Origin: Prorocentrum cordatum
Lineage: Eukaryota > Sar > Dinophyceae > Prorocentrales > Prorocentraceae
NCBI GenBank assembly: GCA_963575745.1
Contig: CAUYUJ010017829.1
Location: 46,001 to 110,000 of the forward strand
Length of the DNA: 64,000 nt
Direction: 5' to 3'
Part shown: positions 7,106 to 53,376 of the stretch, piece by piece
Layout: the number at the start of each line of letters is the position of its first letter
How positions within the stretch are numbered: position 1 is the first letter of the stretch
Position numbers and translations under genes: made by a program
Notes under the pieces: generated by a model
Database searches by the model: none
Told to the model about the DNA's origin: nothing
The model's input: only the letters and a program-made list of their open reading frames with translations

Positions 7106-8038
7106 AATCGAGGTGGGATGTTTGGTGGCTGCGCATGAGGTGGTTTCGGTTTGGGTGGTCAGAGAGCCAGGCCGCCGCCTCGCTCTCCTGCCACGGCAGC
7201 AGCGGGGCCCGTGCTGCGCCGTCCACGGGCTCGGCCACCGTGGCTGCTGCAAGGCCTTCTCCGTCTCCGCGAACTCGGCCGAGCGGGCCTCCAGCAACGC
7301 CATGGCAGCCGCCGCCGCCTGCTGGGCCTCCTGCAGCTTCCCGTTGGCCTTGTCCAGGTCGGCCCGCGCCTTTTCGCGCGCTTTCCTGGCCGCCTCCGCC
7401 CTGCGAGAGGCTGCCGAGAGCTTGGCGGGCAGAGGCTTCTTGTCGTAGAGCGTCTTTCGCTGTGCCTCCAGCTGCGATCGCACCTCTTTGGCCTGAGCCA
7501 CGGCCCACTCGGCCTGGAAGCCCTCCAGCCACTTGAGGTGCTTGTCCAACGCGGCCAGCTTCTCATGAACCTGATCATCTGAAGGATCAGCGAGCTCTTC
7601 TTCAGCTGCAGCGTCGCCCCCGAGAACTTGGCCCTGGCGAAGAGCTGCGTTCTCCTTCGTAAGCTTCTCAAGCTGCTTGCGCAGCTGCTGCTCGCTGGAG
7701 GCGGACGCCAGCTCCATGCGCCCGCGCTTGAGACTGACCGCAGGAGATCTGGGCGGCTTGGCACACTTGAAAGCCACTGACTTGTGGAGATGACGCGTTG
7801 CTGCCCCAGTTGGTGAGAGGCAGCCCAGTACCACGAAAAGTACAACACCTGCACATCCAGTCATCGTTGTCAGCAGCCCGCGGAGCGGGAGCCGTGCCAA
7901 GAAACTGTGAGAGCGAGAGCGAAGGCTGTCCTCCGTAGGGCGGGCCACGGAAGACTCTGCCCGGGGCTGACCAGGCGAAGGGTCGATTGCTAGCCGCGGA
8001 TCAGCGGTATCCGTTTTGGCCCCAAGGGAACCTAGCAT
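7106..8038 (-). pseudogene. LINE A: ORF1-like coiled-coil protein remnant
   Basis: A minus-strand frame opens with an ATG at 8038, immediately after the SL relic, and stays open far beyond this segment. The protein-like portion lies at 7705-7244 (residues about 112-265). It is a charged, Leu/Ala/Glu/Lys-rich coiled coil (EQQLRKQLEKLTKENAAL, then KPLPAKLSAASRRAEAARKA). The layout resembles ORF1 of LINE C, including an early heptad block and a K/R-P-L/I segment before the second helix. A hydrophobic stretch near residues 60-75 looks like a signal peptide but is more likely fortuitous. The Cys-Cys finger found in the ORF1 of C is not visible. Between 7100 and 5830 the frame is low-complexity and breaks up, including a GGA array. 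ORF1 proteins of LINEs bind element RNA; that role is inferred by family only. Confidence 0.55.
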
Positions 8039-8060
8039 CTGGAGCCAAAATGGCTGCGGA
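8039..8060 (-). other. DinoSL relic (20/22) upstream of LINE A
   Basis: Read on the minus strand, this 22-mer matches the dinoflagellate spliced leader at 20 of 22 positions (T to C at position 5, A to C at position 20). It ends exactly at the base before the ATG at 8038. It is not followed by GT, so it is not an SL RNA gene donor site. It is best read as a leader copied into the genome with a processed transcript. See the perfect relic at 46178. Confidence 0.75.
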
Positions 8061-14081: not shown

Positions 14082-14685
14082 CGTCTTATTCCCTACCTAG
14101 GCTCTGCCTAGAAGGGTTCTTACTCTCTTAGCTTAAAGGGGCCGGGCAGTGCAAAGCGCCCCGGGCGGTTCCCCCAGTCCCCTGGGAGCGGTTCCCCCCA
14201 GTCCCCTGGGAGCTTTAGCTTTAGCTTTAGCTTAGCTTTAGCTTAGCTTTAGCTTAGCTGTAGCTTAGCTGTAGCTTAGCGTTTCGCTTAGCTTTTCACT
14301 TCGCGTTTAGCTTAGCTGTAGCTTAGCTTTAGCTTAGCGTTTCGCTTAGCTTTTCACTTAGCGTTTAGCTTAGCTGTAGCTTAGCTTTAGCTTAGCTTTA
14401 GCTTAGCTTTAGCTTAGCTTTAGCTTAGCGTTAGCTTAGCTGTAGCTTAGTTTTAGCTTAGCTCTAGCTCTTCGTTAGCTCTTCTTTAGCTCAGCTTTAG
14501 CTTAGCTTTAGCTTAGCTTTAGCTTAGCGTTAGCTTAGCTTTAGCTTAGCTTTAGCTTAGCTGTGGCTTAGCTTTAGCTTAGCTTCAGCTTAGCTTTAGC
14601 TTAACTTTAGCTTATCGTTACTGTTACTACTAATGCCGCTTTCCTAGGGTTTCCAACTCCTAGGTAGGGTCGCACTGGGATAATT
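14082..14685 (+). mobile_element. TTTAGC-core element, copy 1
   Basis: Three-part structure. The left arm (14082-14212) begins CGTCTTATTCCCTACCTAGG and contains a tandem 23-bp GGTTCCCCCAGTCCCCTGGGAG pair. The core is an 11-bp TTTAGCTTAGC minisatellite with variants (about 14213-14615). The right arm is GTTACTGTTACTACTAATGC to CGCACTGGGATAATT. CCCTACCTAGG near the left end is repeated inverted near the right end. No coding sequence. Confidence 0.8.
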
Positions 14686-14950: not shown

Positions 14951-15567
14951 CGTCTTATTCCCTACCTAGGCTCTGCCTAGAAGGGTTCTTACTCTCTTAG
15001 CTTAAAGGGGCCGGGCAGTGCAAAGCGCCCCGGGCGGTTCCCCCAGTCCCCTGGGAGCGGTTCCCCCCAGTCCCCTGGGAGCTTTAGCTTTAGCTTTAGC
15101 TTTAGCTTAGCTTAGCTTAGCTGTAGCTTAGCTTTAACTTAGCGTTTCGCTTAGCGTTTCGCTTAGCTTTTCGCTTAGCGTTAGCTTAGCTTTAGCTTAG
15201 CTTTAGCTTAGCTTTAGCTTAGCTGTAGCTTAGCTGTAGCTTAGCTGTAGCTTAGCTTTAGCTTAGCTTCAGCTTAGCTTTAGCTTAGCTTTAGCTTAGC
15301 CTTAGCTTAGCCTTAGCTTAGCTTTAGCTTAGCTTTAGCTTAGCTTCAGCGTCGCTTTAGCTTAGATTTAGCTTAGCTTTAGCTTAGCTTTAGCTTAGCT
15401 TTAGCTTAGCTTTAGCTTAGCTTTAGCTTAGCTGTGGCTTAGCTTCAGCTTAGCTTTAGCTTAGCTGTGGCTCAGCTTTAGCTTAGCTTTAGCTTTGCGT
15501 TACTGTTACTACTAATGCTGCTTTCCTAGGGGTTCCAACTCCTAGGTAGGGTCGCACTGGGATAATT
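14951..15567 (+). mobile_element. TTTAGC-core element, copy 2
   Basis: Same left arm, core and right arm as copy 1. The arms are nearly identical to copy 1, while the TTTAGCTTAGC core differs in length and order of variants. Confidence 0.8.
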
Positions 15568-17208: not shown

Positions 17209-17888
17209 GTGCACATGCTTCTGAGGGACCCCACCCCCTGGGCCCCTAGTAGCACTCTCTCGGCGGACGGCTGTATCGTCTCGGGCCTCCTTTCTTTGCT
17301 CAAGGCCGAGGGCTCGAAGTTTGCCTAGATTTGGGGTCCTGGTCCCGGGGGCTCTTTTTTTTTCTGGGGCAATCTTGGAACCTCCTCCTCGCCTGCAAGC
17401 TCAGGAGATTAGGAAGATGCCTTGCTCGTGCAAGGAGTCCTCTGCGGTGTCTGTGGACGGCTTCCACTGTCGTCACTTCTCATTGCTCACTTGACTCTCT
17501 TGTCTTGCTGGGATGTTCCAAGTGATCGAAGCTCTCGGAGTTCTTCCTCCTCAGATCTCCGTGGTCCTTCTCGCTCTGCTCCCGAAGCCGACTGGTGGCT
17601 ACAGGCCGATCGGGGTGTTCTGCCCCTGGCCCTGGTTCAGACTATGGGGCCGCCTTCGGCGCTTCATGGCTGTGAACTGGGAGGTGGAAGATCCCCGACG
17701 GTACTGGGCTGCTGGTCCGTTTCGTGGAGCAGCGAACGTTGTGTAGAGGCAAGCGGTTAAGGCTGAGCGCAGAGTCGCTCGAGGCCAGACCAGCTGCAGC
17801 ACTTTCTTTGACCTTGCCAAGTTTACGAGCACATCTCATTAGCTGAATTAGAGTTCAGGTGTCGCAGGCAGAACTTCCCTCGGATCAT

Positions 17889-26240: not shown

Positions 26241-26762
26241 AATTATCCCAGTGCGACCCCACCTAGGAGCTGGAACCCCTAGGAAAGCAGCATTAGTAGT
26301 AACAGTAAAGCTAAGCTAAAGCTAAGCTACAGCTAAGCTAAAGCTAAGCTAAAGCTAAGCTAAAGCTCAGCTGAAGCTAAGATAAAGCTAAGCGACAGTT
26401 GAGCTGCAGCTAAACTAAAGCTAAGCTAAGGCTAAGATAAAGCTACGCTACAGCTAAGCTAGAACTATGGTAAATCATAGGTACAGCTAAGCTAAAGCTA
26501 AGCTGGCGCTAAGCTAAAGCTAAACTAAAGCTAAGCTAAAGCTAACCTAAAGCTAAGCTAAAGCTAAGCTAAAGCTAAGCTAAAGCTAAGCTAACGCTAA
26601 AGGTAACGCTAAAGCTAACGCTAAAGCTAAAGCTAAAATTCCCAGAGGACTGGGGGAATCGCTCCCAGGGGACCGGGGGAACCGCCCGGGGCGGGTTACA
26701 CTGCACGGCCCCTTTAAGCCAAGCGAGTAAGAACCTTTCTAGGCAGAGCCTATGTAGGGAAA
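26241..26762 (-). mobile_element. TTTAGC-core element, copy 3 (inverted)
   Basis: Reverse-oriented and more diverged copy. The right arm is at 26241-26308 (AATTATCCCAGTGCGACCCC), then a GCTAAAGCTAA core, then the left arm at about 26635-26762 with TTTAAGCCAAGCGAGTAAG and TAGGCAGAGCC. It confirms that the two arms belong together and that the element moved as a unit. Confidence 0.78.
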
Positions 26763-45618: not shown

Positions 45619-46180
45619 CTCCTCCTTCTCCTCCTAGGTCCCTCCTCCTCCTGCTCCTCCTTCTCCTCCCTCTCCTCCTCTCCCTCTAGGTCCCTCCTCC
45701 TCCTCCTCCTCCTCCTCCTCCTCCTCCTCCTCCTCCTCCTCCTCCTCCTCCCTCTCCCTCCTCTCCCTAGGTCCCTCCTTCTCCTCCTCCTCCTCCTTCT
45801 CCTCCTTCTCCTCCTCCTCCTCCTCCTTCTCCTCCTCCTCCTCCTCCTCCTCCTCCTCCTCCTCCCCTCTTCCCCCTCCTCATCATCCTCCTCCTCCTCC
45901 TCCTCCTCCTCCTCCTCCTCCTAAGGGGCCCGGAGGCCCAAGAACGCCCACGAGCCTTCCAGAAGCTCCCTGCCTCGGTCCTCGAGGAGGGCCGAGGACA
46001 GGAGAGCCCCCACGCCGGGAGGGCGGGCAGCGGCCCCCGCCCCGGGCCTCTGCGAGAGAGTCTCCGGGGCCCCGTCCTCGACCGGGGCTTCAGTCGGGCC
46101 TCCTCCTCCTCCTCCCTCCTTCCTCCCCTCCTCCACCTCCTCCCTCCTCCTCCTCCTCCTCCTCCTCCTCCTCCTCCTCC
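45619..46180. repeat. (TCC)n arrays up to the SL relic
   Basis: TCC arrays (45619-45922 and 46097-46180) surround 46030-46096, which holds TCCTCGACCGGGGCTTCAGT, a word found again in the minisatellite at 53377-53990 on the other side of LINE C. The right-hand array runs straight into the SL relic. Confidence 0.9.
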
Positions 46181-46199
46181 GTAGCCATTTTGGCTCAAG
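46178..46199 (+). other. Perfect DinoSL relic upstream of LINE C
   Basis: All 22 bases match the dinoflagellate spliced leader consensus (core CCGTAGCCATTTTGGCTC). The next bases are GC, not GT, so there is no splice donor and this is not an SL RNA gene. It is read as the 5' end of a trans-spliced RNA that was copied into the genome. Confidence 0.9.
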
Positions 46200-46307
46200 G
46201 CTCATGCTTTTGCGGGCTGAGCCCGTATTGGCATTCTCGGATACCGCTAGCTCAAGGCTCATGCTTTTGCGGGCTGAGCCCGTATTGGCATTCTCGGATA
46301 CCGCTAG
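46194..46307 (+). repeat. 57-bp perfect tandem duplication beginning with the SL 3' end
   Basis: 46194-46250 and 46251-46307 are identical. Each unit starts CTCAAGG, whose first six bases are the last six of the leader, and ends CGGATACCGCTAG. The second copy leads into the 5' UTR of LINE C. Confidence 0.92.
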
Positions 46308-46451
46308 TCCGCGGCAGTGCCAGAGCGCTTGCGCTCGACAGCTTTTCGCCTTCACCGAGGGGTTGGGCTCCCTCATCAGTTTTGTCGCCACGGCCAGGCT
46401 GCCCTCAGGGCCGTGGCTCTCGCCGCTTGTCTCTGCGAAGTCGACGCCGCC

Positions 46452-47507
46452 ATGGCCCCGACGCGCAAGGAGAACGCTTCGCCATGGTATTGCAAGTGGT
46501 GCAGGCATGACGTCACGAATCAGCCGTGGTTCAACGCCTCCACCCTTGTGTACTGCAAGAAGTGCGGCCTGCACAAGAGCAACTGTTTCAAGGAGAACAA
46601 AGCAGCGTCGCAGCCCAGCGTCTCGGCCAAGCAGCAGTCGCTCGCGGCCAAGGTCAAGGAGCTCGAGGCGCAGCTTGCCAAGCTCCGAGAGCATCCCCCT
46701 GGGCAAGGGCCAACGGCTACGGGTACAGGTGCGAGCCCTCCTTGGGCTGCCGCGCCTGGGGATGCCGACACCGTCAAGAGGAGCCGTATCAAGATGCTGG
46801 ACCAGCTGCTTCGGGTCACTACTGACCCTGCTGATGCTGATATTGTGGCCAAATGGCGTGAGGAGCGTGCTAGGTTGGATGCTGAGCTCTTTCAAGATAG
46901 GCCCATTGAGCATCAGGCCAGGTCATTGGCGTCACGACTGTCCTCCGCCCGTGCGCGACAGGCTACCATCCAGGCCACTCGCGACGAGCAGCAGCGGAAG
47001 ATTGACGAGCTCACCCGAGGCCTGGCCGACACGGACTCCAAGTTGCAGGAGGCGGCTGCGGAGGTCCTCCGCCTCGAGCAGCAGACTCGCGCCGCCATGT
47101 CGCGAGTCCAGCCGCCCGAGGGCACCCAGCCACCGACGTTGGCGGACTTGCTGCCCACCTTTGCGGTCAGCGTGGAGCAGCTGGGCAAGGTTGCATCGGG
47201 CCTCGGCCTTGGCGCCGACATGGTCAAGGAGCTGCAAGCTATGGCCAACACGGTCAGCAAGCTGCAGAATATGCCGCAGGCCAAGCCGCCTGAACCCGCA
47301 CCTGCCCCCGATGATGAGGATGGTGATGAGTCTTGCGCTGAGCCACCTGACATCGAGATGTCCGAGCAGGAGTACCGTGAGACGCTGGGTGCAGCAGGGG
47401 TCCAAGTCGAGGAGAGCGACACCCCAGACATCGTGCGCGAGAAGTTCAAGCGCCTTCAGCAGAGCTACTTGGACACTGTGGCCAAGAAGGCCAAGACGTC
47501 GGCGTGA
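46452..47507 (+). CDS. LINE C ORF1: zinc-finger/coiled-coil protein (351 aa)
   Basis: The start is the ATG at 46452 (GCCATGG context), where the protein becomes ordered; the frame is open further upstream but lies in the 5' UTR. Residues 12-40 hold a four-Cys finger, WYCKWC...YCKKCGLHK (Cys 14, 17, 35, 38). Residues about 58-82 and 130-215 are coiled coil. 280-350 is acidic then basic, ending VAKKAKTSA. Non-LTR ORF1 proteins bind element RNA and help its assembly; this role is inferred. It stops 16 bp before the first likely ORF2 ATG, which is in another frame. The open frame of ORF2 continues through all of ORF1, so a fused or frameshifted product is not excluded. No disabling change is visible. 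Confidence 0.8.
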   Translation: MAPTRKENASPWYCKWCRHDVTNQPWFNASTLVYCKKCGLHKSNCFKENKAASQPSVSAKQQSLAAKVKELEAQLAKLREHPPGQGPTATGTGASPPWAAAPGDADTVKRSRIKMLDQLLRVTTDPADADIVAKWREERARLDAELFQDRPIEHQARSLASRLSSARARQATIQATRDEQQRKIDELTRGLADTDSKLQEAAAEVLRLEQQTRAAMSRVQPPEGTQPPTLADLLPTFAVSVEQLGKVASGLGLGADMVKELQAMANTVSKLQNMPQAKPPEPAPAPDDEDGDESCAEPPDIEMSEQEYRETLGAAGVQVEESDTPDIVREKFKRLQQSYLDTVAKKAKTSA

Positions 47508-47523
47508 ATGTGCTCGGCTTGAT

Positions 47524-50500
47524 ATGCTGTTGCTTTGGCTTTTTGTCACCATGGTTAGCTCCACATCAGCGCAACATGTCGAGAGTCCGCCTCAGTCATC
47601 TTCGACGGCGGCCAGCATTCTGGGCAGGGGGGGGAGGGATTCAGCCCCTCATAGTCACACCCCCCTGCCCACATCGGCGTCCAGTTCCATGACCTCGCCT
47701 GGCACTACGGCGCCTGCATTATCCCCCCCACTGGCCCGCTCCTCGGGGTGGGGGACAGCTCCGACCCTGACGGTGGCCTCGCCTACTTCGGTTGAGCCTG
47801 CAGCTCCGTCCAGGGCGACTACGGCATCACAGAGGGCTACTCCGTCTACGCCTACGCGGCTGGCCCCTGGCAGCACGCACTGCTCACCGACCTCATCTTC
47901 GGGGATTGGCGGCAGAGGGTACCGACCGTCCTCGGGCGGCACGCACTGCTCACCGCCCTTGCCCTCGGAGAATCCAGGCGGCAGAGGGTACCGACTGCCA
48001 GGGGCCCCACCGGGCCAGGGCGGCCCAGCGTGCCCTACTTTGGATGGCGATCATGACTTCTTTGAGGACGTTGAGCCTGACAGGGAAGCAGATCTGTGTG
48101 AAGGCGCATTTCATGAAGCGCCATCTTCGTCCCCACCTTCTTCCCGATTACGCTTCGAAAAATCAAGTCAAGAACGCGCTGCACCTACCTCGCCTTCGCC
48201 GCCAGGGAGCACGGAGGCGAAGGTGCAGCCAACGCATGCAGTATCCCAGCCGCAGCTCAAGGGCCTCATCACAACGGTGAATGCTACGAGCTACGGCCCT
48301 CTTTTTGACTTTTTGGCTACCTATCGTGGTACTATCTTGCTGGCACAAGAGTTGAGGATTACCGACTCCAGGCTTGGCGAGTTTCAGGCCAGGGCCTTGG
48401 ATGCTGGATGGCATGGGCTATGGGCCCCTTCGCCCTCTACGGGGGACTCAGCTACGTCCAACTTCGGAGGGGTCGCTGTACTTGTGCCGACATACATCAT
48501 GGTCACAGCCCCACCTGATGATGGGCATATTATTTACCCAGGACGAGCAGTCTGTGCGCAGATTAACTGGGGAGTGGCAGGCGGCATCATAGTCGCCAGT
48601 GTGTATCTCGTCACGTCTATTGGCATATCGGGCGAGAACATTGAAGTCCTGTGGGCCTTGGCACAGAGAGTTGCGGCATGGAACTCACGGGGCCTCGACT
48701 GGATCCTAGGTGGCGACTGGAATTCCGACATCGATGCGCTCAATGTTCGCAACTGGGTCGAGACCATGGCAGCCGTCCACTACGTGCCCGACCAGCACAC
48801 CTGCATCACCGATGAAGGCAAGAGCACCATAGACTATTTCGTCGTCTGTGCCAATTTAGCGTCTCGCATCAAGGGCAAGCCAGAGGTTCAGTATGACTCC
48901 ACGGGCGTGCCGCCGCCGCATTTTCCTGTGGAGCTGCAGCTCATGGGCGAGGATCGCCCCACGTGGTGCCGTGTCCCTGTGGAGCCACGTCCCTTTGCGG
49001 TGGTGCCGCCAGTTGGCTGTGCTAGATATCCCTACCCGTGGCACAGGCTTCGGACAGAGTTCCAACGGGTCAGCTGTACTGACGACCTGAGCCCGCTCTG
49101 GGACTCCGTGTTGCGAGGGGTGGACTACGAGCTGGCAGGGCGCTACGACTGTGTGGGTGCTAAGGCCATGCAGTACATCGGACGCGAGGGGCCGCCGCAG
49201 TTCAAGTGGCAGCACTTGTCATGGCAGCCGCCACGCAGGCGTACCTACAAGGAGCCGACCGTGCTGGCCTGGGCCACGGCGAAGCGATGGGCCCAGCACC
49301 TTGTGGCTGAGAAGAAGCGGCTGGTGAGGTACATCGAGCGCCTCAAGCTTTGTGCTGCCGTATGTGACATCACGCCGCTGCAGTACACTAAGGTCGTAGT
49401 GGCTTTCAACGAGGTGGCTGCCTTTTATAGGCGCGCGGCTCGGTCAGAGCATGTGCTGTGTGTCTTGGATGCTGCCTTCGCAGGCTTCTTTCGGCGAGGG
49501 CTGATCGGCTTGGTCGAGGCTGACTTTGAGGACGTAGCCAAGACCATCATTGCCGCAGCTGACCATCATTTGAGAACGGCACAAAGAGCGGCAGAGAGGG
49601 CCTGGAGGCAGTGGGCCAAAGAAGCCTTCCTGGGAGGAGCATCTCGGGCACATTCGTCCTCCAAGGTTCGGGCTCGACAGGAGGTGCTTGCCTACTCCCA
49701 CGACGCTCAGCCATATCAGATGGCTGACCGCACGCTCGACAAGTGGAAGGACGTTTGGACCTACCACGGGGCGTGTTCTTTGCCGCTGCCTGTCGATCAC
49801 GCTCAGTGGCCGTTGCTTCCGCCTTTGACTGCATCGCAGGTGCGTGGAGCCATCAGGAGTTTTCCGTTGAAGACGGCCTCGGGCCAGACGAGGATCGCGC
49901 CACGCACGCTCGATGTGCTGTCCGACCAGGCCTTGCAGAGCCTGGCCGATATGTTCATGCTGTTTGAGAGTTGGCTGGCCTGGCCCACGGACAGGCTCTA
50001 CAGCGAGCTTGTTCGCCTGCCCAAGCCTGACGGGGACACTAGGTTGATCGTCCTCAGCAATACTTTCGTCAGGTTGTGGGGAAAGCTACGTCGGCCGCTT
50101 TCGGCGGAGTGGCAAGAGACACACAGGTGCGAGCATATGTGGGGGTCAAGGGCTGGGCAGACTTCGACCGATTCAGCCTTCGACCACAACCTGAGCCAGG
50201 AGATAGGAGAACTTTTAGGTGAGCACACATGCACCATTCTCCTGGACATGACCAAGTGCTTCGATATGGTCAGTCACAGTGCACTTCTCCGAGAAGCTAG
50301 AGAGCTCGGGTACCCGCTGAGGCTCCTGTGGTTGCTCCTGGGCTCCTACCGTCAGCCGAGAAGGATCAAGTGTTTTGGGTCTGTATCTAGGCCCTTGGTG
50401 GCCCATCAGGGTATTCTTGCGGGCTGCACGCACGCCACGTACCTTCTTTACCTCCTCACGTACCGAGCGGTCCAGCGCACGGCCAGCATTGCACCTTCTA

Positions 50501-53061
50501 TCACGCCACGCACGCTCATGGACGATGTGGGTTTGCAGTACGTGTCGCCTGTATTGAGGGAGGTGTCCAACCTGGCCCGTGCGGCCAAGGCGTTTACGTC
50601 GGATGCTGGAGATCTTGGGATGGTCCTGAAGCCGCCGAAGTCTGGATGTATCCCTGGGAACCAAAAAGTTTGGGGACAGCTCAAGAGGCACCTGGGAACC
50701 TTGAAGATCCCGTACAGGGCCCACATGAGGAATCTGGGACACGAGCTCACAGGACCTCGAGTTCTTCGGCATATGGAGAAGCGTAGGTTGGTGCAGTTTC
50801 GAGAGCGCAAGCATCGTTTTCGCATGTTGAAGTCCGCCGTGGGGCGGAGTGCTACCAGCCTGTGGCGCACGGGCGCCCTTCCATCAGTGGCGCATGGCGG
50901 TGCAGTTGCTGGAGTTAGCGACAGCGCTCTTCGCGAGTTGCGACATTGTGCTGCAGTCCTAAATGGTGCTCCAGGTAAGACGATGGTTGGGGTAACAGCG
51001 TATCTCATATCTCATCGGGATGAGTGTTATGACCCCATATATAACGCCACCACGGATATTGTGCTCAAATACGCCTCCTGGATCTGGGACGGACGTGTGC
51101 AACCTAGCAGACTTCGGGAGGCTTGGGTGCGTCTGGGTGCTAAGTTCGACAGTTCACCTTCCTGGGCCAAGGCGCGTGGGCCCCTCGGGGCCACTTGGCT
51201 TACTTTGAGGCGCATATCCTGGACTATGTCGTCAGAGCACATCCTGGTCGACGATTTGGGAAACAGTTTTGATTTATATCGTATATGTCCAGCAGACCTA
51301 CGAGTATTCCTGCATCAAGGCATTCAGCGATGGCAGCACCATAGGTTGCAGCAGCATTTTTACACCGAGCAGGCGGAGGTGTGGCATCGTGCGCTTCGCC
51401 ACGCGCTCGCCAAGATAAAGTGTCACAGGCGCCTCGGAGCGCTGCAGGCTTTGTGGGCTGACAACCTTCCCATCCCACCACGTCGGGACATGAAGCACGG
51501 GAGGCCCATTAGGCCATGTCAGGCCTGCGGCAAGGCTATCGACTCCTGTTGGGGTCATATCTTTTACGACTGCCCGCCGCTCCTCGAAGGGAACCCCGAC
51601 CAGGAGTATTATGAGTTTCCAGAACAGCTTCAGGAGGTTCGTGACATGCTTCAGGCGTCTGGGCAGATGCTGGGGTGCACCGACTGGGACCAGAGATACC
51701 TGATCTATGGGGTTCCCGAGCCTGTTCCTGTACCGCACTACACCACGGTCTCCAAGGAGGTTTTTGCATGGGGAGATGTCTCGGGCTCTTGGGGGCCCAC
51801 GTCATATACTGACGGTTCGGGGTTCTCGGCCAGCATTCCTGAAGTACGTAGGTGCGGGTGGTCGGTCTGCCAGCTGGACCCCGTCACGTGGCTCCCCGCC
51901 AGAGCTGTATATGGGCCTTTGCCCTACTACGTGCAGACAGTAGGACGTGCTGAGCGCTATGCCATTAAGATGGGACTTCAGTGGCATCCTGGGCATGAGG
52001 TTTTCATTTCTGATCTGAAATCGCTCGTGGAAGAAGGTGCGTCCTGGGACCAGAGGCTCGAGTTTGGCAAAGCGAAGCACGCCCGAGTCTGGAGAGATAT
52101 TTTTTCGGCTGCCAGAGCACGCGATCCACGTCTGCCACCAGTGCGGTTTCAGTGGACTCCAGCTCACAGGAAGCTGGAGGACATCATCGGGTCGGCCACG
52201 CCAGACGAGCTGGAGGCCTACGTCGGCAATGCCTGGGCCGATTTCTTCGCGAAGTGTGGCAGCGCTTCGCATATGGTGTCAAAGACACTGGCTGACAGTC
52301 TGGCAGCTGGGCTGAAGCAACACAGGCAGGTCCTGCACTATGTGTCGTGGGCGGCCTTCCAGGTCGTGCAGTTTCGGAAGTGGGGAGCTGACCCTGTCGT
52401 GGTGCAGGACCCAGAGCTCGCCCAGGTGCCCAAGCGTGTGGTTTTCGAGAGGCCCCAGGACCACGAGTTGCTCTTCTGCCAGAGGACGTCAGAGTATCGG
52501 TGTCGAAGGTGCAATCGTGTCGCTCGGTGTGCGAGTACCCTCCAGACTCTTCGTTCGGGAGCTGATCGTGTATGTGCTCCCTCGCCCCTTGTCCAGAGCC
52601 TGGCCGAGGACTTCTTCTTGCGGAGTTCTGAGGCGTGGCTTAGTGTCTCGGATTCTAGGGTCACGGCGGCCATCGAGGCGGCCGATAGGATGTTGGGGTC
52701 CACGTCTCGGCCTTTGGAGGCCTCCTCGGTTCCCGCGGTCCCTCCTCAGCCGCTGGGGCAGGTGTCGGCTGCCAGCGGCTCGGCCGACGTACCCCAACCT
52801 GTGCTTGCTGAATTCGCTGAATTGGGGCATGATGTTTTCTGTGTCAATTCCGTGTATTGCTGCCGCAAGTGCGGTGGCAATTTCAACGGGTCCGAGTCCT
52901 TCAGGTCCGCCCGCAAGCTGCGGGCGCAGTGCCAAGGTTTCTCGGAGAATCCAAAGACTAGGGCGAACCAGCTCACGGCGATCGACCGCATCACCCGTGG
53001 CCTGGAGCCCCGCCAGCGGGGGGCAGGAGCGGTGCGTTCTGGCCCGAACCCTGCCCCCTAG
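47524..53061 (+). CDS. LINE C ORF2: endonuclease-RT-RNase H polyprotein (about 1845 aa)
   Basis: The first ATG after ORF1 is at 47524; a second at 47551 (CACCATGG) is equally plausible. Residues 1-240 are Ser/Pro/Thr-rich, with a duplicated THCSP...GGRGYR segment. EEP (about 245-480): VNATS (Asn253), AQEL, LGGDWNSD (Asp398, Asn400), STIDYFVV (Asp437), PPHFPV (His466). RT (about 760-1040): RLPKPDGDTRLIVLS, motif A ILLDMTKCFDMV (Asp908), motif B QGILAGCTHAT, motif C LMDDVGLQ (Asp1000, 1001). Knuckle CQACGK...GHIFYDC (1332-1350). RNase H: SYTDGS (Asp1430), AERYA (Glu1477), FISDLKS (Asp1497), GNAWADFF (Asp1573). The tail has YRCRRC and YCCRKC clusters. All catalytic residues are present and no stop interrupts 5.5 kb. 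This protein would nick target DNA, copy the element RNA and remove the template. The element may be able to move. Confidence 0.93.
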   Translation: MLLLWLFVTMVSSTSAQHVESPPQSSSTAASILGRGGRDSAPHSHTPLPTSASSSMTSPGTTAPALSPPLARSSGWGTAPTLTVASPTSVEPAAPSRATTASQRATPSTPTRLAPGSTHCSPTSSSGIGGRGYRPSSGGTHCSPPLPSENPGGRGYRLPGAPPGQGGPACPTLDGDHDFFEDVEPDREADLCEGAFHEAPSSSPPSSRLRFEKSSQERAAPTSPSPPGSTEAKVQPTHAVSQPQLKGLITTVNATSYGPLFDFLATYRGTILLAQELRITDSRLGEFQARALDAGWHGLWAPSPSTGDSATSNFGGVAVLVPTYIMVTAPPDDGHIIYPGRAVCAQINWGVAGGIIVASVYLVTSIGISGENIEVLWALAQRVAAWNSRGLDWILGGDWNSDIDALNVRNWVETMAAVHYVPDQHTCITDEGKSTIDYFVVCANLASRIKGKPEVQYDSTGVPPPHFPVELQLMGEDRPTWCRVPVEPRPFAVVPPVGCARYPYPWHRLRTEFQRVSCTDDLSPLWDSVLRGVDYELAGRYDCVGAKAMQYIGREGPPQFKWQHLSWQPPRRRTYKEPTVLAWATAKRWAQHLVAEKKRLVRYIERLKLCAAVCDITPLQYTKVVVAFNEVAAFYRRAARSEHVLCVLDAAFAGFFRRGLIGLVEADFEDVAKTIIAAADHHLRTAQRAAERAWRQWAKEAFLGGASRAHSSSKVRARQEVLAYSHDAQPYQMADRTLDKWKDVWTYHGACSLPLPVDHAQWPLLPPLTASQVRGAIRSFPLKTASGQTRIAPRTLDVLSDQALQSLADMFMLFESWLAWPTDRLYSELVRLPKPDGDTRLIVLSNTFVRLWGKLRRPLSAEWQETHRCEHMWGSRAGQTSTDSAFDHNLSQEIGELLGEHTCTILLDMTKCFDMVSHSALLREARELGYPLRLLWLLLGSYRQPRRIKCFGSVSRPLVAHQGILAGCTHATYLLYLLTYRAVQRTASIAPSITPRTLMDDVGLQYVSPVLREVSNLARAAKAFTSDAGDLGMVLKPPKSGCIPGNQKVWGQLKRHLGTLKIPYRAHMRNLGHELTGPRVLRHMEKRRLVQFRERKHRFRMLKSAVGRSATSLWRTGALPSVAHGGAVAGVSDSALRELRHCAAVLNGAPGKTMVGVTAYLISHRDECYDPIYNATTDIVLKYASWIWDGRVQPSRLREAWVRLGAKFDSSPSWAKARGPLGATWLTLRRISWTMSSEHILVDDLGNSFDLYRICPADLRVFLHQGIQRWQHHRLQQHFYTEQAEVWHRALRHALAKIKCHRRLGALQALWADNLPIPPRRDMKHGRPIRPCQACGKAIDSCWGHIFYDCPPLLEGNPDQEYYEFPEQLQEVRDMLQASGQMLGCTDWDQRYLIYGVPEPVPVPHYTTVSKEVFAWGDVSGSWGPTSYTDGSGFSASIPEVRRCGWSVCQLDPVTWLPARAVYGPLPYYVQTVGRAERYAIKMGLQWHPGHEVFISDLKSLVEEGASWDQRLEFGKAKHARVWRDIFSAARARDPRLPPVRFQWTPAHRKLEDIIGSATPDELEAYVGNAWADFFAKCGSASHMVSKTLADSLAAGLKQHRQVLHYVSWAAFQVVQFRKWGADPVVVQDPELAQVPKRVVFERPQDHELLFCQRTSEYRCRRCNRVARCASTLQTLRSGADRVCAPSPLVQSLAEDFFLRSSEAWLSVSDSRVTAAIEAADRMLGSTSRPLEASSVPAVPPQPLGQVSAASGSADVPQPVLAEFAELGHDVFCVNSVYCCRKCGGNFNGSESFRSARKLRAQCQGFSENPKTRANQLTAIDRITRGLEPRQRGAGAVRSGPNPAP

Positions 53062-53376
53062 TGTTTCTTTTGGGCTTGGGCCTGGGAGGTTTTCTTGGGT
53101 GTGGTTTTCCTGAGGCGCCCCACCCTCTCCCAGGCTTCCGCCCTCCGCCACCCCTGTGGCTCTCAGGTCTCACGCGCGGTGGGTGTTCGTCACTCGGACG
53201 CCTCTCCTGCGGCTCGCTCGCTCGCCTCCTCCGCCTCCTCCTCCTCCTCCTCCTCCTCCTCCGCCTCATCCTCCTCCTCCTCCTCCTCCTCCTCCTCCTC
53301 CCCTCCGTCCCTCCCTCCCTCCCTCCCTCTCACCCACCCTCACTCCCTCCCTGCCCTCCCTCCCTCACTCCCCCCC
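53062..53376. other. 3' flank of LINE C with TCC array; no gene
   Basis: No poly-A or simple 3' tail is evident after the stop at 53061. A TCC array (53224-53303) and CCCT repeats follow. The 3' end of the element cannot be fixed. Confidence 0.5.

Follow-up and report, generated by a model that had tools for sequence, protein, structure and literature searches.

A clade of LINEs headed by the host spliced leader in Prorocentrum cordatum, and its probable renewal by trans-splicing

We are confident, from the comparison of genomic copies, that LINE C, an element in a 64,000-nucleotide stretch of Prorocentrum cordatum DNA (hereafter the window), is a member of a large non-LTR retrotransposon clade that is headed by the host spliced leader (SL) and whose re-trans-spliced RNA would be copied through the SL into TCC tracts. 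The initial annotation of this DNA had reported a 22/22 match to the dinoflagellate SL directly upstream of LINE C and a 57-bp tandem repeat that starts in the last bases of the SL, and both are present (Table 1). The SL is perfect (TCCGTAGCCATTTTGGCTCAAG), and its 21-mer, with up to 3 mismatches allowed, had 0 matches in 100 shuffles. The repeat has a period of 57 and a match of 100%; its matching run is 58, which gives 1 base of microhomology, and the unit can be written from either GCTCAAG or CTCAAG. The SL of LINE C is thus confirmed, whereas the view that it is the sole SL in the window does not stand: a second one, with 2 mismatches, lies on the minus strand. Shortly 3' of the SL, both window elements carry the box CGGATACCGCT--TCCGCGG.

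Table 1. Coordinates in the window of the features of LINE C and of the second SL-headed element
Feature	Position	Strand	Basis
5' end of the second SL-headed LINE, which starts at 8059; TCC-rich tract before an SL with 2 mismatches	8039..8060	-	SL search, up to 3 mismatches
5'UTR box of second element, CGGATACCGCTGATCCGCGG, related to the LINE C box	7994..8013	-	Sequence comparison
(TCC)n tract holding the LINE C insertion; polypyrimidine directly 5' of SL	46099..46180	+	TCC-type flank in 40/44 testable relatives
Genomic 22-nt dinoflagellate SL, first bases of LINE C	46178..46199	+	Order TSD-SL-5'UTR in sister copies
57-bp unit in two perfect tandem copies with 1-bp microhomology; LINE C only	46193..46307	+	Present in 1/94 elements
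5'UTR of LINE C; spans the duplication and, ahead of the box, a predicted hairpin	46200..46451	+	Copy comparison, stem prediction
Conserved 5'UTR box ATACCGCTAGTCCGCGG	46298..46314	+	2,342 exact genomic copies
ORF1, 351 aa, starts MAPTRKENASPWYCKWC	46452..47507	+	Variable sites 20/11/67 at codon positions 1/2/3 (21 copies)
ORF2 frame, bounded where codon bias begins; start codon not fixed	48271..53061	+	Variable sites 117/109/248 at codon positions 1/2/3 (21 copies)
Endonuclease/exonuclease/phosphatase domain (Exo_endo_phos)	48304..48861	+	Pfam E 5.9e-05; 23.4 bits, cut-off 24.5
Reverse transcriptase RVT_1	50020..50643	+	Pfam E 6.2e-07; 29.8 bits, cut-off 29.6
(GCTC)3 3' tail	53212..53223	+	3' ends compared in 21 copies

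The relatives of LINE C were sought in the 4.13-Gb assembly, in which LINE C lies on contig C16980. With a 283-bp probe, 40 of 804 candidates were scored as matches, and we fetched 30 loci. A perfect 21-nt SL stood before the UTR in 26 of these 30 5' ends (in L016 an SL relic lies between the two). Elsewhere the start of the contig falls inside the SL (L015), or the SL has a 2-nt deletion (L018), is altered (L022) or is shortened to its last bases (L030). Upstream flanks were unlike between loci; a common flank was seen only in L002/L017 and L024/L029, and a common last stretch in L003/L025. The initial annotation had held that SL-less relatives sharing sequence further upstream would speak against its reading; among the fetched loci the flanks differ, and the flank-sharing pairs L002/L017 and L024/L029 are all SL-headed.

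A UTR pattern free of SL sequence gave 95 matches genome-wide in 94 elements, with two matches only in C16980, 57 bp apart. The SL was exactly adjacent in 87 of these 94 elements, as judged from an SL-plus-UTR 38-mer with at most 1 mismatch and checked by coordinates; the remaining 7 lie on C10835 (L018), C13545 (L016, double SL), C16079 (L015), C5891 (L030), C9247 (L022), C13533 and C13577. We reject the idea that the SL was gained by the LINE C copy alone. An assembly or vector artefact is ruled out by the 14,218 exact SL 21-mers in the genome (reversed control 0), together with target-site duplications (TSDs) that end at the SL. We note that these 14,218 copies in P. cordatum far exceed the 496 and 244 putative SL sequences given for two Symbiodinium genomes in the available part of that report (PMC8045281), a comparison across differing methods.

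The TSDs establish where the SL lies relative to the insertion. Twenty whole copies (among the 30 fetched loci) and LINE C made a set of 21; identity to LINE C is 99.0-99.6% in 14 copies and 95.9-96.7% in 6. Of the 21, 8 have a TSD of 14-18 bp, with the 5' copy ending at the SL and the 3' copy following the (GCTC)n tail. Four of these are non-repetitive: L031 (14 bp), L033 (16 bp), L037 (17 bp, GCTACCTTGCCTGGGTT) and L039 (16 bp, CTCCCTGCTTTTAAGT). The other four (L034, L035, L044 and L048; 17-18 bp) are less telling because they lie in interrupted TCC tracts. Ten of the 21 copies, LINE C included, sit in plain TCC and are uninformative, L047 and L050 fell outside the TSD test, and no TSD was found for L043. 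Because the clear TSDs end at the SL, the inserted cDNA began with the SL, which thus lay within the insertion.

Two of these loci have further peculiarities. In L031 (C18099) two extra G stand between the TSD and the SL, and are possibly untemplated or cap-derived. L034 (C15443) and L043 (C10835) have 105 nt of 3' end and flank in common while their 5' flanks are not shared, and the elements are 99.1% identical; this may reflect a chimeric, converted or duplicated locus, or an assembly problem.

The SL is not confined to close relatives of LINE C. A probe from the second element of the window, which contained the SL, gave 41 matches, 37 of which were confined to its first 125 nt, and we fetched 20 places. 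An SL that can still be recognised opens all 20 of these 5' ends, perfect in 14 and with 1-2 mismatches in 6, and the sequences differ from there on; the SL in the probe biases this sample. The box ATACCGCTAGTCCGCGG served as an SL-free query: of its 2,342 exact copies, 1,789 (76%) are preceded, at a distance of 24-54 nt, by the 12 nt that end the SL, and the 553 boxes without this exact 12-nt SL end form a class that may pool mutated, shortened and SL-free copies. Among the first 100 boxes listed, a perfect 21-nt SL preceded 67, namely 65 in the 24-54-nt range and 2 with a double SL just outside it. The pattern SL-N24-54-GATACCGCT had 1,862 genomic matches (reversed control 0), and families whose UTRs have diverged come with a perfect SL, which the search pattern itself demanded. 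These comparisons support the reading that LINE C and related families begin with the SL. They likewise uphold the proposal of the initial annotation that LINE RNA was trans-spliced and retroposed with its leader, and would extend it beyond the single element for which it was made, as SL-headed copies occur across families and, where readable, between TSDs.

The spacer between SL and box is family-specific in sequence and tends to fold as a hairpin. In single-sequence prediction, a stem of at least 5 was found in 39 of 40 spacers (null 39%) and of at least 6 in 28 of 40 (null 15%), the null being mononucleotide shuffles; among longer spacers the figure was 12 of 13 (null 34%). The hairpin sequences are related to each other and are a subset of the 78 listed, and fixed-column covariation was almost nil, so that we regard the predicted 5' hairpin as weakly supported.

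Whether the SL is added anew in each cycle bears on how such a clade is maintained. We compared 43 variant 38-mers among the 100 listed, fewest mismatches first, of 279 matches. Six SL positions were changed once each, and UTR changes recurred 13, 11, 7, 6 and 5 times. By position, recurring changes affect 4 of 17 UTR positions versus 0 of 21 SL positions, a modest test, and single changes are about equally frequent (6 of 21 SL versus 4 of 17 UTR positions). With SL changes mostly private and UTR changes recurring in subfamilies, most SL mutations seem to arise once the element is inserted, and few seem to be handed down. A second trace is the double SL, a full SL followed by a 15-nt relic that starts after SL nucleotide 7, which is exact in L066 and carries one change in L016/L042 (one locus). 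Exact double SLs number 1,202 genome-wide, or 8.5% of the 14,218 SL copies; of the 50 fetched LINE loci (L001-L030, L051-L070), 2 have a double SL. Private SL mutations and double SLs together point to re-addition of the SL by trans-splicing. Because splicing at the inner AG would add 15 nt per cycle and doubles are rare (2/50), the usual acceptor would be the terminal CTCAAG.

The SL might instead have been captured once by an ancestral LINE and then inherited as a DNA-encoded 5' end, perhaps kept as a promoter or cap-acquisition site, with no fresh trans-splicing in each cycle. The absence of a double SL from 48 of the 50 fetched 5' ends is what simple inheritance predicts; moreover, one SL change does recur, CCGCAG being found in both the second element of the window and L062, and selection on a DNA-encoded SL could also keep SL mutations mostly private. 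We nevertheless consider a single capture improbable. In the listed LINE C-type matches the SL mutations are single while those of the neighbouring UTR recur, and a perfect SL heads families with diverged UTRs (in matches to a pattern that required it). The full SL with its 15-nt relic, in L066, in L016/L042 and at 1,202 places, is hard to account for unless splicing took place twice.

The 57-bp duplication is a different matter. The initial annotation had taken it as a record of repeated cycles, built by renewed trans-splicing at the internal CAAG. The repeat does start with bases of the SL tail, as that account would have it. Splicing at the second CAAG, however, removes everything upstream of the acceptor, and would delete the first unit rather than add one, so trans-splicing cannot build the duplication; moreover, the duplication is present in only 1 of the 94 elements, none of the others having more than one 57-bp unit. 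We regard this origin as very improbable. Repeated cycles are recorded by the full SL with its 15-nt relic, a tandem partial SL that is not present in LINE C, and not by the 57-bp duplication.

Template jumping by the reverse transcriptase or slippage of the DNA is likelier than trans-splicing as the source of the repeat. In the former, cDNA synthesis would have reached the SL tail on one template and restarted on another, at a 5'UTR site where one base was homologous, and we rate the chance of this as about even. The junction lies within the last 7 nt of the SL and has 1 bp of microhomology, and an independent case in another family has the same design: L053 (C20250:60400-60700) carries a 68-bp 5' tandem duplication that begins in the SL tail, from its CAAG, again with 1 bp of microhomology. 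The 5' junctions of R1 and R2 elements, in the accessible text of one study, likewise have microhomologies and non-templated bases (PMC2718515). Against this, there are two cases only, and a tandem duplication at the DNA level gives the same trace. Such a DNA-level origin, whether slippage or end joining at a microhomology once the element was in place, or else an assembly error, would fit the fact that the units are identical and private to the LINE C locus, and we hold it only a little short of an even chance; it would make it a coincidence that both duplications have their junction in the SL tail. We thus see the 57-bp duplication as a separate accident of LINE C, perhaps a template jump made close to the SL while the cDNA was being synthesised.

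The identification of LINE C as a real LINE holds: a reverse transcriptase domain was found, an endonuclease domain scores just below the Pfam cut-off (Table 1), and the homologues P0001 and P0003 carry PF03372. Variable sites in the 21 copies favour third codon positions in both ORFs. Between them (47508-48270) the ORF2 frame is open, yet has no third-position bias (34/29/23; 21 copies), and in 11 of the 21 copies the frame that holds ORF2 runs on open beyond 2,200 codons. An ATG within the repeat, at 46204, opens a mechanical frame of 2285 aa. We rejected it as a conserved coding start, since third-position bias favours the other frame (ORF1) and since the 68-bp duplication of L053 is no multiple of 3; it is probably not the true start. 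The (GCTC)n tail has 2-12 units across the 21 copies, no poly(A) was found at their 3' ends, and their 5' ends bear no obvious likeness to their 3' ends, as long terminal repeats would. The third-position bias of the two ORFs and the identities of 95.9-99.6% to LINE C speak for recent activity of the family. A sequence search of PDB gave 0 matches at E 0.01.

Other features of the window and of the databases deserve mention in their own right. A distant LINE reverse transcriptase fragment (28% identity) lies at 17495-17839 on the plus strand, and the window search with up to 3 mismatches placed no SL near it. An 11-bp unit (AGCTTTAGCTT and permutations) forms three arrays, at 14211-14614, 15084-15495 and 26306-26636, and beside each lies one copy of a repeat of 23-24 bp (GCGGTTCCCCCCAGTCCCCTGGGA, or a complement similar to it). 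A search of viral contigs with the relative P0001 yielded 0 confirmed. The SL 21-mer returned one contig of a viral collection, L091 (IMG/VR, 7157 bp), with two perfect SL 21-mers on the minus strand at 2893-2913 and 2746-2766, at a spacing of 147 bp; they precede a small ORF (1936-2700) and have AT-rich ORFs beside them. The contig may come from a virus that captured or mimics SLs, or may hold a message captured from the host.

The insertions favour TCC tracts. In the 25 nt before the SL, 40 of 44 testable LINE loci are TCC-type and 0 are GGA-type; 6 of the 50 loci fell outside the pattern used, and 4 of the 44 are not TCC by the chosen threshold. By comparison, 5.0% of window positions are TCC-type and 3.6% GGA-type. 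We also took the first 20 listed SL sites on contigs C1 and C2, blind to context, in a count that may pool SL RNA genes with insertions: 10 were TCC-type, 7 GGA-type and 3 neither. The LINE box was present in 3 of these 20, an exact second partial SL in 4, and a degenerate one in 2 more. As 17 of the 20 blind sites lie in TCC or GGA tracts, we infer that LINE machinery stands behind SL-tagged retroposition, and that most SL-tagged insertions would have been made by LINE-type machinery with a TCC/GGA preference. The SL sites in GGA tracts (L073, L080, L083, L085, L086, L088 and L090) have the orientation opposite to that of the LINE C clade. L076 resembles L088 and L075 resembles L087, so that further repeat families carry the SL. 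Microsatellite-targeting LINEs, for example insect elements, insert in simple repeats. The target of LINE C is likewise a simple repeat; unlike theirs, it is a polypyrimidine tract that could double as part of a splice acceptor.

These observations can be assembled into a cycle. The element, which has nothing of its own 5' of the SL, would be transcribed from a flanking host promoter. The SL would then be trans-spliced to the transcript, in most cases at the final AG of the resident SL copy (CTCAAG), which would restore an identical 5' end; splicing at the AG inside the SL (TCCGTAG) would instead leave a full SL and the 15-nt relic. The SL-capped RNA would be translated into ORF1 and ORF2 and would serve as the template of a target-primed reverse transcription that runs on through the SL, and the cDNA would be inserted mostly into TCC tracts, with TSDs of 14-18 bp. 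Because a TCC tract puts a polypyrimidine beside the AG of the SL, the insertion would land with a trans-splice acceptor already in place. In its widest form the proposal is tentative, and we would put its chances below even: a promoterless LINE clade would target TCC in order to rebuild acceptors, and would also take up host SL-mRNAs, as an mRNA-recycling machine. TCC and the AG of the SL would rebuild the acceptor wherever the locus is transcribed, so that the host SL would serve as the removable 5' end of the element; LINE endonuclease and reverse transcriptase would be shared with host SL-mRNAs, and a sister group would use the opposite orientation and GGA tracts.

SL-tagged retrogenes and mRNA recycling in dinoflagellates were reportedly described by Slamovits and Keeling in 2008. 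Like those retrogenes, the LINE C clade has a genomic SL at its 5' end, and in both a second SL may be joined at the AG of SL nucleotides 6-7, leaving a 15-nt relic. Unlike them, the clade would recycle its own RNA, and has many near-identical copies, TSDs and a location mostly in TCC tracts. According to the accessible parts of the literature, dinoflagellate mRNA recycling with genomic SL relics is already known (PMC3229502; DinoRL in PMC12014239), and a review treats the recycling element as unknown and favours Ty1/copia LTR elements (PMC6050394). In the same partial record, LINEs are named as possible recycling agents and one study ties them to integrated viral genes near SL relics. We found no description of LINEs with an SL at their own 5' end in the literature searched, which was available in part and included few subscription papers.

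Other LINEs obtain their 5' ends by different routes. The trypanosomatid L1Tc/ingi elements (Pr77, L1TcRz) also live beside SL trans-splicing, have a conserved module near the 5' end and are released from host co-transcripts. As far as the text available to us goes, Pr77 elements have an internal promoter and unspliced transcripts and are released by a ribozyme (PMC8190864), and R2 elements self-cleave through a 5' HDV-like ribozyme (PMC3774820). The 5' end of LINE C is the SL itself, in place of the Pr77 promoter and ribozyme. As in R2, it would be made by processing of a co-transcript, with SL trans-splicing in place of self-cleavage. A search of 46100-46520 against Rfam found no 5' HDV-like ribozyme, nothing being above threshold; the only match was a sub-threshold hammerhead on the other strand (17.1 bits, E 0.77).

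Dinoflagellate genomes hold thousands of SL-tagged retrocopies. Here we have a LINE clade that is SL-headed and appears to have been active recently, and that has its TCC target in common with SL sites chosen blind, which makes the question of the recycling element directly testable. If our reading is true, the 5' end of these LINEs would be supplied by host trans-splicing and not by a promoter or ribozyme of their own, and the SL-headed clade may be an engine that returns mRNAs into this genome.
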